Shown here one piece after another: positions 2,831-11,491 of a stretch of 11,491 nucleotides of DNA; positions within the stretch are counted from its first letter, which is position 1; each line of letters starts with the position of its first letter. The translations under genes were made by a program, and so were the position numbers. The notes beneath the pieces were generated by a model, which had not been told where the DNA came from, did no database searches, and worked only from the letters and a program-made list of their open reading frames with translations. This stretch comes from Sulfurospirillum sp. UBA6790 (lineage in GTDB: Bacteria; Campylobacterota; Campylobacteria; Campylobacterales; Sulfurospirillaceae), in contig DKFS01000040.1 of the NCBI GenBank assembly GCA_002452855.1, positions 1 through 11,491 of the forward strand, written 5' to 3'.

Positions 2831-3554
2831 TGCCAACGGCAATGACTTTGTTATTTTTCACACTTTTATTGAAGTGGACCGAAGTGAATTAGCCAAGAAA
2901 TTATGCAATAGACAAAAAGGTATAGGAGCCGATGGTCTTATCGTGTTATTACCATATAATGAATACGATTTTAAATGGCAATTCTACAATAATGATGGCT
3001 CGGTTGCATCGATGTGTGGAAATGGTACGCGAGCATGTGCACACTATGCTTACTCCAATCAGCTTGCTGGTGCAAGTATGCGTTTTTTAACAGGCGCTGG
3101 CGTCATTAGTTCCATTGTTGAGAATGACAGTGTTGAAACAGAAATGACTGAACCCAAAAAATTACGAGACTCATTTGAAGAAAATGGTTTGACATGGCAT
3201 TTTTGCGATACGGGTGTGCCTCATCTTGTAACGTTTGTCGAAGATATTAACTGTTTTGATAAAACGATTGCTCGTCAAATGCGGTTTAAATATAACGCTA
3301 ACGTAAACTATGCAACGCTTGAAAACAGTACATTACATGTAAGAACATATGAGCGTGGAGTTGAAGATGAAACACTTGCCTGCGGCACAGGCATGGCAGC
3401 TTGTTTTTATAGCGCTTATTGTGAAAAGCTGATAGGAGAAAACGCAAAAGTATATCCTACCAGTAAAGAAGAACTATATTTACGTATGCACGAAGATAAA
3501 CTGTTTTTTAAAGGCTTGGTACAAAAAGTCTTTGAAACAACGTTGGACCTTTAG
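2811..3554 (+). CDS. dapF: Diaminopimelate epimerase
   Basis: DapF interconverts LL- and meso-diaminopimelate without a cofactor, supplying lysine and the peptidoglycan cross-link residue. Both catalytic cysteines are visible: Cys69 in NNDGSVASMCGNGTRA and Cys191 in ERGVEDETLACGTG. NANGNDFV at 7-14 is the normal N-terminal signature. I chose the ATG at 2811 (247 aa) because MQIAKYNANGNDFV matches the family N-terminus and GAGGA lies 4 nt upstream. A longer frame back to 2778 would add 11 unconserved residues and deepen the overlap with coaE to 53 nt. The preferred start overlaps coaE by 20 nt. It is the middle gene of the coaE-dapF-glucosaminidase unit. Confidence 0.95.
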   Translation: MQIAKYNANGNDFVIFHTFIEVDRSELAKKLCNRQKGIGADGLIVLLPYNEYDFKWQFYNNDGSVASMCGNGTRACAHYAYSNQLAGASMRFLTGAGVISSIVENDSVETEMTEPKKLRDSFEENGLTWHFCDTGVPHLVTFVEDINCFDKTIARQMRFKYNANVNYATLENSTLHVRTYERGVEDETLACGTGMAACFYSAYCEKLIGENAKVYPTSKEELYLRMHEDKLFFKGLVQKVFETTLDL

Positions 3555-4289: not shown

Positions 4290-5357
4290 TTAGAAATTTG
4301 CCTCTTTCATCAATTCCGCTTGGTAGTGAGCGATAATTGGGTCAATAATCTCATCAAAAAGACCACCTTCCATAATCGCATCTAAACGGTAAAGGGTTAA
4401 TCCAACACGATGGTCGGTAATACGGTTTTGAGGATAGTTATACGTTCGAATACGGGCACTACGATCACCAGAACCCACTTGTTGTTTTCTGGCTTCGCTC
4501 TCTTTTGCATTACGTTCTTGAAGTTGAATATCGTAAAGTTTTGCTTTGAGAATTTTCATAGCAGCATCTTTGTTTTTATGCTGAGATTTTCCATCTTGGT
4601 TTACTACAACAAGCCCCGTTGGTAAGTGAGTAATGCGCACAGCACTGTCGGTTGTATTAACCGATTGTCCACCATTACCACTAGAGCGCATAACATCAAT
4701 TTTAAGGTCTTTTTCTTGTATGTCAATTTCAACGTCATCTACTTCTGGCATAACAGCAACTGTTACTGCTGAAGTGTGTACTCTACCTTGTGATTCCGTT
4801 AGAGGAACACGTTGAACTCTGTGGACGCCACCTTCATACTTTAAGCGTGAAAAAGCGCCCTGCCCTTTAACAAGGGCAATAACTTCTTTGTAGCCATTTA
4901 AAACGCCTTCACTGAGTGAAACAACTTCAACTTTCCAACCACGGTTTTCTGCATAACGAAGATAAGCTTTAAAAAGGTCTGCTGAAAAAATTGCCGCTTC
5001 ATCGCCACCGGTTCCTGCACGAATTTCAAGAAAGATGTTGCGATCGTCATTGGGGTCTTTGGGTAACAGAAGAAGTCTAATTTCATCTTCCAGTTCATCC
5101 CGTAGAGATTCTAGGTTTTTGAGCTCTTCTTTTGCTAATTCCCCAAGTTCCTCATCATCCAAAAGAAGTTTATTATCTTCAATTTGATCAAGTGTTGAAA
5201 TGTAGGATAGTGTTTTATCTTTGATCTCTTCTAAATTAGATTGTTCTTTAGAGAGTGCTGTCATCTTCTTAATGTCATTAGCGACATTAGGATCACTTAA
5301 TAGTGTAGATAACTCATTGTATCGATCAAGGAAAGGAACTAATTTTTCTTTTAGCAT
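4290..5357 (-). CDS. prfA: Peptide chain release factor 1
   Basis: RF1 recognises UAA and UAG stop codons and triggers peptide release on the ribosome. The 355-residue protein has the catalytic GGQ at 229-231 ([10 protein letters not shown]), the anticodon-like P-x-T at 185-187 ([10 protein letters not shown]; Leu in the variable place), and the RF1-type C-terminus with [25 protein letters not shown]2 would carry SPF instead of P-x-T. It lies 36 nt after rpsT on the same strand, an order also found in Helicobacter (HP0076-HP0077), and is probably co-transcribed. No purine-rich ribosome-binding site is visible before the ATG; the 15 nt upstream are pyrimidine-rich. Confidence 0.97.
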
Positions 5358-7987: not shown

Positions 7988-9328
7988 ATGAAACTTTTTG
8001 GAACCGATGGTGTTCGTGGAAAAGCTGGAAAAAAATTGAGTGCTTTTATGGCTATGCGTTTAGCGATGGCCGCAGGTATCTATTTTCGTAAAAATTCGAT
8101 TACCAATAAAATTTTAGTCGGCAAAGATACGAGACGCAGTGGATATATGATTGAAAATGCGATTGTTTCAGGACTGACTGCTGTTGGGTACGATGTCAGG
8201 CAAATCGGACCAATGCCAACACCTGCTATTGCGTTTTTAACGGAAGATATGCGTTGTGACGCTGGTATCATGATTAGCGCGTCGCATAATCCGTATTTTG
8301 ATAATGGCATTAAATTTTTTGATTCTTTTGGTAATAAACTTGGTGAAGCTGAAGAAGCTGCTATTGAAAAAATTTATTTTGATGATGAATTAATCGAGCG
8401 CAATCAAAAAATGGAGTTTGATATTGGACGTTCTAAACGCGTCGATGATGTCATTGGACGTTATATTGTTCAAATTAAAAATTCTTTTCCAAAAAATTTG
8501 ACACTGAAAGGGTTTCGCATTGTCTTAGATACAGCCAATGGCGCAGCCTATAAAGTAGCCCCAACGATTTTCAACGAATTAGGCGCTGATGTCATTATGA
8601 TTAACGATGAGCCCAATGGAAGTAATATCAATCTTAATTGTGGGGCATTGCATCCTGAAGAATTGGGTGAAGAAGTTCGAAAGCTAAGAGCGGATATTGG
8701 GTTTGCTTTTGATGGTGATGCTGATCGTTTGGTCGTTGTTGATGAAAATGGCAATCCAATACACGGCGATAAGCTTCTTGGTAAGATTGCCACTTTTTTG
8801 CATAGTCAAAATCGGTTAGCTAACAAAGGCGTTTGTGTGACTGTTATGAGCAATCAAGCGTTAGAAGATTATTTGCATCAATCTGGCATTACAATGCATC
8901 GTTGTGATGTGGGAGATAAAAATGTTCTAGAGTGCCTATACAGAGAGAAAATTAGCTTTGGTGGAGAGCAGAGTGGGCATATCATAGTTTCAGATTTTGC
9001 AAAAACAGGTGATGCGTTAGTGGCAGCGCTTGCTGTTATGCACTGTGTGCTCACAGAGAAGAAAGAAGTGAGTAAACTTTTCAACCCATTTGAACTTTAC
9101 CCTCAATTGCAGCAAAACCTTAAAGTCGATAATAAAATTCCACTGGCTGACATTAAAGGATACGAAGCGTTGATAGAAGAGTTAGAGACTAAGAAGCTAC
9201 GCGTTTTGATTCGTTACTCAGGCACCGAGAATTTATTAAGGATTTTACTTGAGGGACAAGATGAGGTTGTGCTTGATGAGTGTATGGAAAAAACCGTAAA
9301 GTTTTTCAAAAGTGCTCTCAATGAATAA
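7988..9328 (+). CDS. glmM: Phosphoglucosamine mutase
   Basis: GlmM converts glucosamine-6-phosphate to glucosamine-1-phosphate for UDP-GlcNAc, the precursor of peptidoglycan and lipopolysaccharide. The 446-residue protein has all four functional sites: phosphoserine Ser99 in SASHN (97-101), Mg-binding DGDADR (242-247), sugar-binding GGEQSGH (325-331) and phosphate-binding RYSGTEN (409-415). I chose the ATG at 7988, giving the family N-terminus [11 protein letters not shown]. The frame is open back to 7940, but those 16 residues are not part of the family and would run through the promoter region. The ribosome-binding site is weak (AAGTGGG). The stop overlaps the lspA start by 8 nt. The glmM-lspA pair next to rpsT-prfA also occurs in Helicobacter (HP0074-HP0077), where no channel genes intervene. 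Confidence 0.97.
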
Positions 9329-9770
9329 AAAAGCATGGCTGATATTTGGGGTCACATTAGTAGCTATTTTCGGGATTGACCAATGGATTAAAACTCTATT
9401 TCTAGATGGATTTCGTTGGCAAGGCGATTTTTTTTCACTGATTTTAACCTATAATAAAGGTGTAGCTTTTTCAATGTTCTCTTTTTTGGAAGAGTATTTA
9501 AAGTATATACAGCTTTTACTGGTAGGCTCGCTAGGAATCTATCTTCTTTTTCATCAAAACCTATTGCATTCTTATGGTTTCGCTATTGGTCTTATTGGTG
9601 GAGCGGCGTTCAGTAATATTTATGACCGGTTTATTCATGGTGGTGTTGTTGATTATTTTTTCTGGCATTATGGATTTGAATTTGCCGTTTTTAACTTTGC
9701 TGATGTGATGATTGATTTGGGTGTATTGCTGATTTTTTATCGTTCATGGAAAGCTTCTAAGAGCATTTAA
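9321..9770 (+). CDS. lspA: Lipoprotein signal peptidase (signal peptidase II)
   Basis: LspA is an inner-membrane aspartic peptidase that removes signal peptides from lipidated prolipoproteins. The 149-residue protein has four membrane segments (about 7-24, 62-78, 84-104, 122-141) and both catalytic aspartates: Asp111 in [12 protein letters not shown] and Asp128 in [20 protein letters not shown] (43-53) is the conserved N-x-G-x-AF region. The ATG at 9321 is preferred; a GTG three codons earlier (9312) is possible. There is no strong ribosome-binding site, and the start lies within the glmM end (ATGAATAA), so coupled translation is likely. A hairpin beginning in its last codons probably ends the transcript. 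Confidence 0.96.
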
Positions 9771-9795
9771 TACGCCTCATTAAGCTCTTTTCTCT
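9759..9795 (+). terminator. Probable intrinsic terminator of glmM-lspA
   Basis: AAGAGC (9759-9764) pairs with GCTCTT (9784-9789), and inside it TTAAT (9767-9771) pairs with ATTAA (9779-9783), leaving a two-base bulge and a 7-nt loop. TTCTCTC follows the stem as a short pyrimidine/T tract. The left arm lies in the last codons of lspA. The hairpin separates the housekeeping transcript from the tRNA promoter beginning at 9805. Confidence 0.55.
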
Positions 9796-9804
9796 CAAAA
9801 ATAG

Positions 9805-9832
9805 TTGCAATTTCAGTTTTTTTTGGTATAAT
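9805..9832 (+). promoter_or_regulatory. Promoter of the interrupted tRNA-Val gene
   Basis: TTGCAA (9805-9810) and a perfect TATAAT (9827-9832) are separated by 16 bp, and the tRNA begins 20 nt after the -10. This is the best sigma-70-type promoter in the window. Because the tRNA is now broken, it should transcribe the tRNA 5' half and continue toward the integrase gene. Confidence 0.8.
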
Positions 9833-9852
9833 CTCAGCTCTTAAATGGTTAT

Positions 9853-9890
9853 GGTCGCGTAGCTCAGTTGGTAGAGCACTACCTTGACAT
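9853..9890 (+). tRNA. tRNA-Val(GAC), 5' half only, interrupted at the anticodon loop
   Basis: The sequence reads as a normal tRNA start: acceptor strand GGTCGCG (9853-9859), TA, a D-arm with stem GCTC/GAGC (9862-9865, 9874-9877), A26, the 5' side of the anticodon stem CTACC (9879-9883), and the seven-base anticodon loop TTGACAT (9884-9890) with anticodon GAC (9886-9888), which reads valine codons. From 9891 it fails. The next five bases must be near GGTAG to close the stem but are CGACT, and no proper variable loop or T-arm follows. The break falls exactly at the loop/stem edge, a known tyrosine-integrase target position, and an integrase gene starts about 100 bp on. As it stands here, the locus cannot give a normal tRNA. 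Confidence 0.85.
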
Positions 9891-9994
9891 CGACTAGTGA
9901 AAACCCCTTCGATACGGACTTCGTGACAACTTTTTAACAACTTCCTACACAGTTTGATACACAAAAACGACCTTCATTTTAAGGGTTTGTGTAG
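9884..9994 (+). other. Presumed attL core and integrase arm region
   Basis: The presumed crossover lies in or next to the anticodon loop (9884-9890), where tRNA sequence ends. Element-side DNA contains short repeats typical of integrase arm sites: ACAACTT twice (9926-9932, 9937-9943); TACACA twice (9946-9951, 9958-9963) with an inverted TGTGTA at 9988-9993; and CTACACA (9945-9951) facing TGTGTAG (9988-9994). The last repeat covers the integrase ribosome-binding region, so it could also serve in autoregulation. These assignments rest on pattern and position only. Confidence 0.5.
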
Positions 9995-11223
9995 TGAAAT
10001 ATTTAGTCAAAAATCTCAATGATACTTACCACGTTAGAATAAGAGTCTGCTCTAAGCTTATTAAATATTTTCGTCAAAGAGAAATCTCTAAAAGCCTTAG
10101 AACGAGAAACCTAAAACAGGCTAAAGCACTCCTAAAGCTCATCGTTAATGATTATAAAAAGCTCAAACTATTAGCCACTATAGGTCTTCATTCAGAAGAA
10201 CATATACAGACCCTTACTGATGAGTTTGTTGATAAGTATACTCTTACAAAATATAGAACTATTTACAGCACTAAAACAGCTAGACTATTGACTCATGGAG
10301 CATGTTTAGATGAGTTTGAGAAGTACTATAAATCATTAGACATCGGAGATAACAAACGTAATATAACACTAAGTTACCTTAGAAAGGTCTATCTCCCTAT
10401 TGTTGGTGCTAACACGCTTATAGACGTTATTGATTTTAATAAAATGTATTCTATCAAAGAGACACTCTCTCAGCTCCCTAAAAGGCTTTCTGCAAACTAC
10501 AAGTCATTAACACTAAAAAAGCTAGTAAAAGTAGATGTAGAGGACGATGAAAGAATATCTGATACAACCCTAAAGGCATACATAGGCTACACTAAACGCT
10601 TTTATAACTATTGCCTCTCTCAACAGTATATTAGAATTAACCCCTGTAGTGCTTTGAGTGTCAAAAGCTCAAGCAATGCTATCAATGAGCGTGACCCATT
10701 TACCAAAGAAGAGGTTAGGGCGTTGCTACAGGTTATAGATACTCACAACCCTTCATTAAAGGCTATCTATTACACACTGGCTTACACTGGTTTGAGGATG
10801 TCAGAACTATGGAAAGCTACACTAAAGCATGACGAACAGGGTGACATATGGTTCTTAGACCTTACTGATAGAAAACTAAGGCTAAAAACAAATAGCAGTT
10901 ACAGAATAGTCCCTATACACAGAGCTTTAGTGGACTTAGGCATCCCTCAGATATTACCACAAGCAGTGAGAGAGTACAAGCAAGAACGTGCTCAAAAGGT
11001 TTTCAATATCAGTATTAAGCCACAGGTTACCTCATCACCTAAAAAGGTTTTATACTCATTTAGGCACACCTTTGCTACAGAGCTCAAGTACTCTAAAGTA
11101 GACCCTTTAGTTATCTCAGAACTTATGGGGCATTCTCATAGTGGTATGACAATGAGCAGATATGCTAGTAGGTATCCTATATCCATGCTCAAGGAGGCTA
11201 TTGATACGTTAGATTATCTATAA
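9994..11223 (+). CDS. Tyrosine recombinase/integrase with DUF6538-like N-terminus
   Basis: A 409-residue site-specific recombinase. In order: a DUF6538-like N-terminal segment (about 1-50: YLVKNLNDTYHVRIRV, then SLRTRNLKQAKALL), a helical core-binding domain (about 105-222), and the catalytic domain (about 235-405). Catalytic residues seen: Arg268 (TGLRMSELW), Lys298 in the beta-hairpin (RLKTNSSYRIVPIH), Arg357 with Tyr354 in the place of the usual first His of HxxR (LYSFRHTFATEL), His380 (ELMGHS) and nucleophile Tyr390 (MSRYAS). The set is complete apart from that tolerated substitution, so it is probably active. The GTG start has AAGGG 8 nt upstream. Arg codons are mainly AGA/AGG and CTA is frequent, unlike the CGT/CGA-rich upstream genes, which supports transfer. 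It should act at the tRNA-Val junction beside it. Confidence 0.93.
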   Translation: MKYLVKNLNDTYHVRIRVCSKLIKYFRQREISKSLRTRNLKQAKALLKLIVNDYKKLKLLATIGLHSEEHIQTLTDEFVDKYTLTKYRTIYSTKTARLLTHGACLDEFEKYYKSLDIGDNKRNITLSYLRKVYLPIVGANTLIDVIDFNKMYSIKETLSQLPKRLSANYKSLTLKKLVKVDVEDDERISDTTLKAYIGYTKRFYNYCLSQQYIRINPCSALSVKSSSNAINERDPFTKEEVRALLQVIDTHNPSLKAIYYTLAYTGLRMSELWKATLKHDEQGDIWFLDLTDRKLRLKTNSSYRIVPIHRALVDLGIPQILPQAVREYKQERAQKVFNISIKPQVTSSPKKVLYSFRHTFATELKYSKVDPLVISELMGHSHSGMTMSRYASRYPISMLKEAIDTLDYL

Positions 11224-11284
11224 GACTTTATACAAGCTTTGCAACAATATATAAAAATATTATAGAAATAAGGAGAACACAACG

Positions 11285-11491
11285 ATGGAAGATATTTCGT
11301 TAGATATTGAATTTAAGATGCACACATCAGTCCCTTATGAGTATATGAGCCCTGAAAGCTATATTACGTTTATCAAAGGTGACATAAAAGCGTATGATGA
11401 TGAAACAGAATCACCAGTTCTTATTGGAAAAATTCAGCTCTATTATTGCGATATGCTATCTGCCTGTATTGTCAAGCGAAGCGCAGAACTG
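11285..11491 (+). CDS. Unrecognised protein, 5' part only (runs off the window)
   Basis: An open frame of 69 codons from ATG 11285 to the last base, with a good AAGGAG (11270-11275) 9 nt upstream. It begins MEDISLDIEFKMHTSVPYEY and is acidic, with no signal peptide or membrane segment. A motif-like stretch, SPVLIGKIQLYYCDMLSA, follows near residues 44-61 and suggests beta strands. I do not recognise the family. It starts 61 nt after the integrase stop in the same direction, as the first candidate cargo gene. The gap contains AT-rich DNA with a possible -10 (TATTAT, 11258-11263) but no -35 at a normal distance. Confidence 0.7.
   Translation, partial: MEDISLDIEFKMHTSVPYEYMSPESYITFIKGDIKAYDDETESPVLIGKIQLYYCDMLSACIVKRSAEL

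Follow-up and report, generated by a model that had tools for sequence, protein, structure and literature searches.

The Islander collection lists 159 islands with a displaced 5' tRNA fragment among 3919, against 3760 with a displaced 3' fragment (PMC4383910). As its main text describes them, the 5'-fragment islands consist of a tyrosine-integrase element lying between an upstream 5' tRNA fragment and a downstream complete tRNA, and a class of anticodon-centred sites is recognized there as well. Islander relies on the sequence signature, and its main text, in which “promoter” does not occur as a word, does not treat the expression of the rebuilt genes. Archaeal integrases of the pTN3 type offer a second likeness: the accounts given of them describe an element that brings the 5' half, the full tRNA being rebuilt away from its original promoter, and an integration that splits the integrase gene (PMC8371274, PMC5495485). 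For ICEKp1, transcription of int from the host tRNA promoter was shown; once the element has integrated, this promoter precedes int and has the same orientation. There the 3' end of the tRNA gene is occupied by the element, the tRNA continues to be made from the host promoter and the tRNA terminator is displaced (PMC13023037).

We analysed a stretch of 11,491 nucleotides from Sulfurospirillum sp. UBA6790, called here the window, in which a tyrosine integrase gene follows the front half of a tRNA-Val(GAC) gene. A reading made from the letters of the window (the sequence-only reading) had called this layout less usual than the standard one, and the Islander numbers bear this out: it is a rare but already known kind, that of the displaced 5' tRNA fragment, within what those sources describe. 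Unlike the split gene of the pTN3 type, the integrase gene of the window is an intact frame 3' of the break. It is highly probable, in our estimation, that the window holds the int-side junction (attL) of an integrative element inserted in the anticodon loop of a single-copy tRNA-Val(GAC) between lspA and thrS, and that the tRNA is rebuilt by a 5' half which the element carries on its far arm. The features on which this reading rests are collected in Table 1.

Table 1. Features of the window and of the related element in genome G001 (window positions unless stated otherwise)
Feature	Position	Strand	Basis or remark
lspA, host flank marking the chromosomal locus	9312..9770	+	domain search
Host tRNA-Val(GAC) promoter: -35 TTGCAA (9805-9810), 16 nt, -10 TATAAT (9827-9832), TG before -10	9805..9832	+	promoter scan and sequence
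Stranded 5' half of tRNA-Val(GAC), bases 1-38 (attL, host side)	9853..9890	+	alignment to intact genes of the genus
attL core: CACTACC and the 7-nt loop TTGACAT, then element sequence CGACTAGTG	9877..9899	+	putative crossover region
Candidate arm-type integrase site ACACAGTTTGATACACAA	9947..9964	+	candidate by position and repetition (G001 counterpart ACACAAATCGGTACACAA)
Tyrosine integrase (int), 409 aa, GTG start, co-directional with the tRNA	9994..11223	+	PF00589 (Phage_integrase), DUF6538, phrog_1
Further element reading frame, interrupted by the contig end	11285..11491	+	no Pfam or PHROGs match
G001 rebuilt complete tRNA-Val(GAC)	13189-13264, reversed contig		thrS start 50 nt behind
G001 element	L007 3671-11652		7.9 kb

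A perfect tRNA 5' half ending at base 38 (9890) behind a promoter had been claimed for the window. Aligned with seven intact tRNA-Val(GAC) genes, chosen among the 26 such loci of the genus and all of the GGTCGCG...TTGACAT allele, the half is identical at 38 of 38 bases in each of the seven, and TTGCAA-16-TATAAT stands in front of it. The next 38 bases agree with the same genes at 6 or 7 positions only, an abrupt change confirming that the sequence past 9890 does not continue the tRNA. The break thus lies directly 3' of base 38, with which the anticodon loop ends. In the intact gene this loop belongs to a core, CACTACC-TTGACAT-GGTAGTG, where perfect 7-bp arms surround the 7 nucleotides. That no repair of the tRNA occurs on the integrase side was also correct: ARAGORN found no tRNA in the window, Rfam gave no match at E≤1 between 9000 and 11491, and a pattern search of the window + strand found neither the tRNA-Val 3' half (with up to two mismatches), nor GTTCGAATCC, nor GGTTCGAnTCC. 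From the break, 103 bases lead to the start of int on the same strand, so that the integrase gene, recognized by Pfam and PHROGs, lies inside the element near its end; the contig stops 1.6 kb inside the element, before its far end.

This missing 3' half is also what would be expected if tRNA-Val(GAC) were truly lost in the strain, tRNA-Val(TAC) then reading all the valine codons, and a pattern search does detect a tRNA-Val(TAC)-type sequence in 20 of the 24 genomes available for the genus of G001 (G001 included; this set is used throughout for the genus). The copy number speaks against it. The number of tRNA-Val(GAC) genes and the state of the site in relatives had been proposed as checks: by exact pattern, tRNA-Val(GAC) occurs once, and once only, in all 23 genus genomes other than G001, and G001, whose integrase is the closest, retains a rebuilt copy. 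The second option of the sequence-only reading, a tRNA lost and replaced by another valine tRNA, is thus improbable, and we prefer the reading in which the far arm of the element rebuilds the gene.

lspA is present in all 24 genomes; an intact tRNA-Val(GAC) lies within the 1.5 kb fetched around it in 18 of them, and at 2.1-2.2 kb in five more (G003, G004, G017, G018, G021), so that empty sites abound and G001 is the genome in which the tRNA-Val(GAC) at lspA is broken. An exact TATAAT precedes the tRNA by 19-20 nt in 17 of the 23 other genomes. Behind it, a thrS-like start is found 50-54 nt 3' in all 23 (L139-L162 being the loci of the genus), the N-terminus resembling that of the G001 threonyl-tRNA synthetase at 44-49 of 59 residues in 22 genomes and more weakly (19/59) in G015. 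This suggests that tRNA-Val(GAC) and thrS form a tRNA-synthetase operon which the element splits from its promoter; the gap between the two genes being short, thrS would share the promoter of the tRNA and lose it through the element.

Some variation at this locus can be mentioned here. The lspA-linked promoter that tRNA-Val has in most of the genus is not seen in the five genomes with the longer distance (loci L140, L141, L154, L155 and L159), and in G003 a divergent sulfatase-domain gene on the other strand separates lspA from the tRNA. Besides, the tRNA-Val(GAC) of nine genomes (G002, G007, G008, G010, G014, G015, G022, G023 and G024) and of G001 has a C at position 33 (loop TCGACAA; our own numbering); to our knowledge U33 is nearly universal in tRNAs. 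In the nine, the acceptor stem GGCCGCG...CGCGACC yields a C3-A70 mismatch (same numbering). The loop of the remaining 14 of the 23 reads TTGACA.

Both ends of an element of this kind can be read in G001, the only close relative to offer them. A single scan of genome contigs with the window integrase found one relative, locus L001 of G001, whose integrase is 72% identical over residues 1-408. L001 also lies downstream of lspA, from which an LpxR-like gene separates the tRNA, and shows the same order, the tRNA-Val 5' half preceding int by about 100 bases. Farther along this contig, 7.9 kb beyond the half, stands a complete tRNA-Val(GAC) in the same orientation, followed by thrS, identified by its threonyl-tRNA synthetase domains; the window, ending inside its element, has the 5' fragment only, and its own far end is presumably alike. 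An exact direct repeat of 61 bp, made of a 20-nt leader and tRNA bases 1-41, begins at 5263 and at 13169 of the reversed contig, its second copy being the front of the complete tRNA. Each copy of the 61-bp repeat, one per element end, is flanked by an 18-bp repeat, ACACAAATCGGTACACAA, which the candidate arm-type site of the window resembles. The search for a far end with the 3' part of tRNA-Val, which the sequence-only reading had advised, was successful in this relative.

The sequence to the left of the far-end repeat belongs to the element wherever in the repeat the crossover falls, and for this reason the upstream side of the rebuilt tRNA is element DNA. That the element carries the tRNA 5' half is thus supported, by one relative and by comparison of sequences. 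The first option of the sequence-only reading, an element bringing a 5' half with its own promoter and rebuilding the tRNA at its far end, stands in G001 for the 5' half and for the rebuilt gene; the promoter is a candidate, which the promoter scan did not match.

Two other explanations of the junction have to be considered with G001 at hand. The window ends within the element, its far end being outside the contig, and one could imagine that the contig is an assembly chimera. Nevertheless a junction of the same kind is found at the same locus with a diverged integrase in an independent metagenome-assembled genome, G001, and the window integrase belongs to a cluster of 23 member sequences on 3 contigs, so that a chimera is exceedingly improbable. 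The other explanation places the crossover at the front of the tRNA leader: the int-side 5' half would then be the element's, and the far-end tRNA an undisturbed host gene cut from its promoter. Identity alone permits it, as the 61-bp repeat of G001 begins 20 nt upstream of the tRNA, and some repeats of related elements begin away from the loop (in the D arm for G341, as a nearly whole tRNA for G373, as the last 18 bp only for G323). However, identity ends at base 38 in the window and at base 41 in G001, i.e. at or just past a loop flanked by perfect 7-bp arms; the repeats of G342, G270, G393, G006 and G011 begin in or just before the anticodon loop; and anticodon-centred sites are a known class in what the sources describe (PMC4383910, PMC8371274). 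A crossover at the leader appears very improbable to us.

We thus return to a crossover in the anticodon loop, which the two identity boundaries and the 7-7-7 core fit. The element would enter the loop of tRNA-Val(GAC) between lspA and thrS, one arm, that of int, being devoid of the 3' half and the other ending in a copy of the 5' half together with its upstream DNA. The exchange would take place within the 7 nucleotides between the 7-bp arms, any point of the 61-bp repeat being permitted in G001. Integration would then leave the host promoter and the host 5' half beside int, and, at the far end, join the 5' half of the element with the 3' half of the host, so that one complete tRNA gene would remain.

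Apart from the integrase, the G001 element encodes a serine recombinase and Bro-N/anti-repressor-like, DEAD-like and DNA-binding-like proteins. Virion structural families were found in none of the 7 of its frames that were searched in Pfam, nor in the 5 of these also searched with PHROGs; the window contributes int and one cut frame. The DEAD-like frame reads X over a short stretch. A further (third) tRNA-Val(GAC) of G001 is located on contig C49, next to another lspA-like gene, which shares 51% identity with lspA of the window; we take C49 for a foreign contig in this assembly.

A block of about 50 bp upstream of the rebuilt tRNA of G001 matches the sequence that precedes tRNA-Val(GAC) in G003, G004, G017, G018 and G021, with alignment scores of 45-63 that none of 500 mononucleotide shuffles reached in any of these five; G017 and G021 hardly differ from each other in that region. 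The other 18 genomes of the genus score 12-25, the best (G007, 25) being reached by 2 of 300 shuffles, and the left, int-side copy in G001 itself scores 18, reached by 53 of 300 and 108 of 500 shuffles. A tree of lspA unites the five, with modest support (93/90), in a group to which G001 does not belong. Judging from these alignments, the element probably took up a tRNA front, with the DNA preceding it, from a different lineage, or else the transfer went the other way and the five genomes owe theirs to an element. It is a possibility that the five received their tRNA-Val promoter from a past element of the same kind.

Since this block is conserved upstream of the tRNA, we consider it, on sequence grounds, a candidate for an element-borne promoter serving the rebuilt gene; both this tRNA and thrS, which starts 50 nt 3' of it, would be transcribed from there. 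A promoter scan of the far-end stretch of G001 gave no match in the block, its sole hit lying about 250 bases upstream of the rebuilt tRNA, with 1.9 hits expected by chance in the stretch, and the tRNA could be transcribed from elsewhere than the block. In the five genomes, a divergent gene begins on the side of the block away from the tRNA, and the block may serve that gene instead.

The other elements of the integrase family that were read do not share this layout. A search of the order retrieved a relative of the integrase at E≤1e-20 in 15 of 398 genomes, and besides G001 we read ten related elements, leaving out G191, G349, G377, G388 and a second hit of G393 (all below 100 bits). An intact tRNA stands beside int, with the 3' piece at the far end, in G342 (tRNA-Ser GGA), G270 (tRNA-Met) and G323 (tRNA-Ser TGA; a repeat of 18 bp only); the 3' piece stands beside int, with the intact tRNA at the far end, in G011 (Pro), G006 (Arg), G393 (Met), G341 (Asn) and G373 (Ser), the int-side copy of the latter being nearly whole and called a tRNA by ARAGORN. 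These eight same-family integrases are thus also at tRNA genes, but the displaced fragment is the 3' one, whereas the clade of the window and G001 strands the 5' fragment, a layout seen in none of the ten. As eight of the ten displace the 3' fragment, kinship alone would predict the standard layout. Repeated arm-like sequences are found at both ends of the element in G342, G393 and G341. The repeat of G348 is in no tRNA found by ARAGORN. In G278, whose integrase is 34% identical, the first 60 nt of tRNA-Leu(TAG) stand beside int (C1:136229-136289) without the 3' part, the complete gene being 7 kb away; no simple layout fits, and G278 was kept out of the classes.

The integrase tree unites the window with G001 (100/100) and joins G011 and G342 to them, with a support of 91/93 for all four and of 80/86 for the G011/G342 pair. 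G393 and G270 are sisters (100/98) and use the same tRNA type with opposite layouts, which indicates that int can change sides with respect to the tRNA from one close relative to another. Wider searches at E≤1e-60 retrieved 3 of 44 genomes of the family and 4 of 397 of the phylum, in samples overlapping the order-wide one, with G001 in both and no further close relative. The named relative P0022, from a Sulfurospirillum sp., is 38% identical. Among viral contigs, the integrase has one weak match, or eight weak ones with an alignment as query, and remote matches occur in 21 phage records, below 60% identity. A pattern search for other broken tRNA-Val 5' halves gave candidates in 46 of the 398 genomes of the order; all except that of G001 read GGTG past base 38, able to pair with CACC, and were discarded, as they look like intact stems (seen to base 42).

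Five viral contigs match the tRNA-Val 5' half: four hold complete tRNAs, and one, L125, a half. In L125 the 5' half of tRNA-Val(GAC), at 3219-3271, has a promoter-like TGnTATATT in front, and ARAGORN found no complete tRNA on the whole contig. An integrase gene adjoins the half on the other strand, diverging from it, with phage-type genes on both sides; this integrase has more than 1000 remote phage matches, all below 60% identity. L125 looks like an attP, and likely one that carries the 5' half on the int arm; we count it as an independent case in favour of our reading.

The orientation of int raises the question of its transcription. In both the window and L001, int runs in the direction of the stranded half tRNA, and the host promoter points into it. 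Within 9300-11491, no terminator-like site was scored, an absence that weighs little with 1.1 expected by chance; the absence of any promoter-like match on the + strand between the tRNA promoter (9832) and int weighs little as well, 7.1 matches being expected by chance over the same stretch. By its layout, and by analogy with ICEKp1, int is likely transcribed from the host tRNA promoter. Unlike in ICEKp1 (PMC13023037), a half tRNA precedes int in the window, where the host promoter would transcribe int by position, and a scan behind the rebuilt tRNA of G001 scored no terminator-like site. The latter scan led us to drop CTCCC...GGGAG, behind the intact tRNA, as a terminator. An attenuator or leader RNA structure between the half tRNA and int was likewise set aside, three segments folding no better than shuffles (z -0.40, -0.04 and -0.18).

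Extending this to both ends, we tentatively envisage an exchange of promoters, in which the element would bring a tRNA promoter of host origin along with the 5' half. At the empty site, the host promoter would serve tRNA-Val and probably thrS; in the integrated state, the host promoter would serve int, and the promoter of the element would serve the tRNA and thrS; in the excised circle, the promoter of the element would serve int. We hold this scheme for possible, though rather doubtful.

The locus is a case of a minority solution, in which a mobile element rescues the tRNA because it supplies the front half and perhaps the promoter as well; one relative allows both ends to be read, and empty sites are numerous. 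One family of integrases displays three layouts, the 3' half being carried either on the int arm or on the far arm, and the 5' half on the far arm, which makes the switching of the carried half a testable question. The prediction is that integration places the host tRNA promoter onto int and the promoter of the element onto tRNA-Val and thrS. This exchange would be the most interesting implication of the finding, read as it is from sequence: if true, integration swaps promoters between a tRNA-synthetase gene pair and an integrase.
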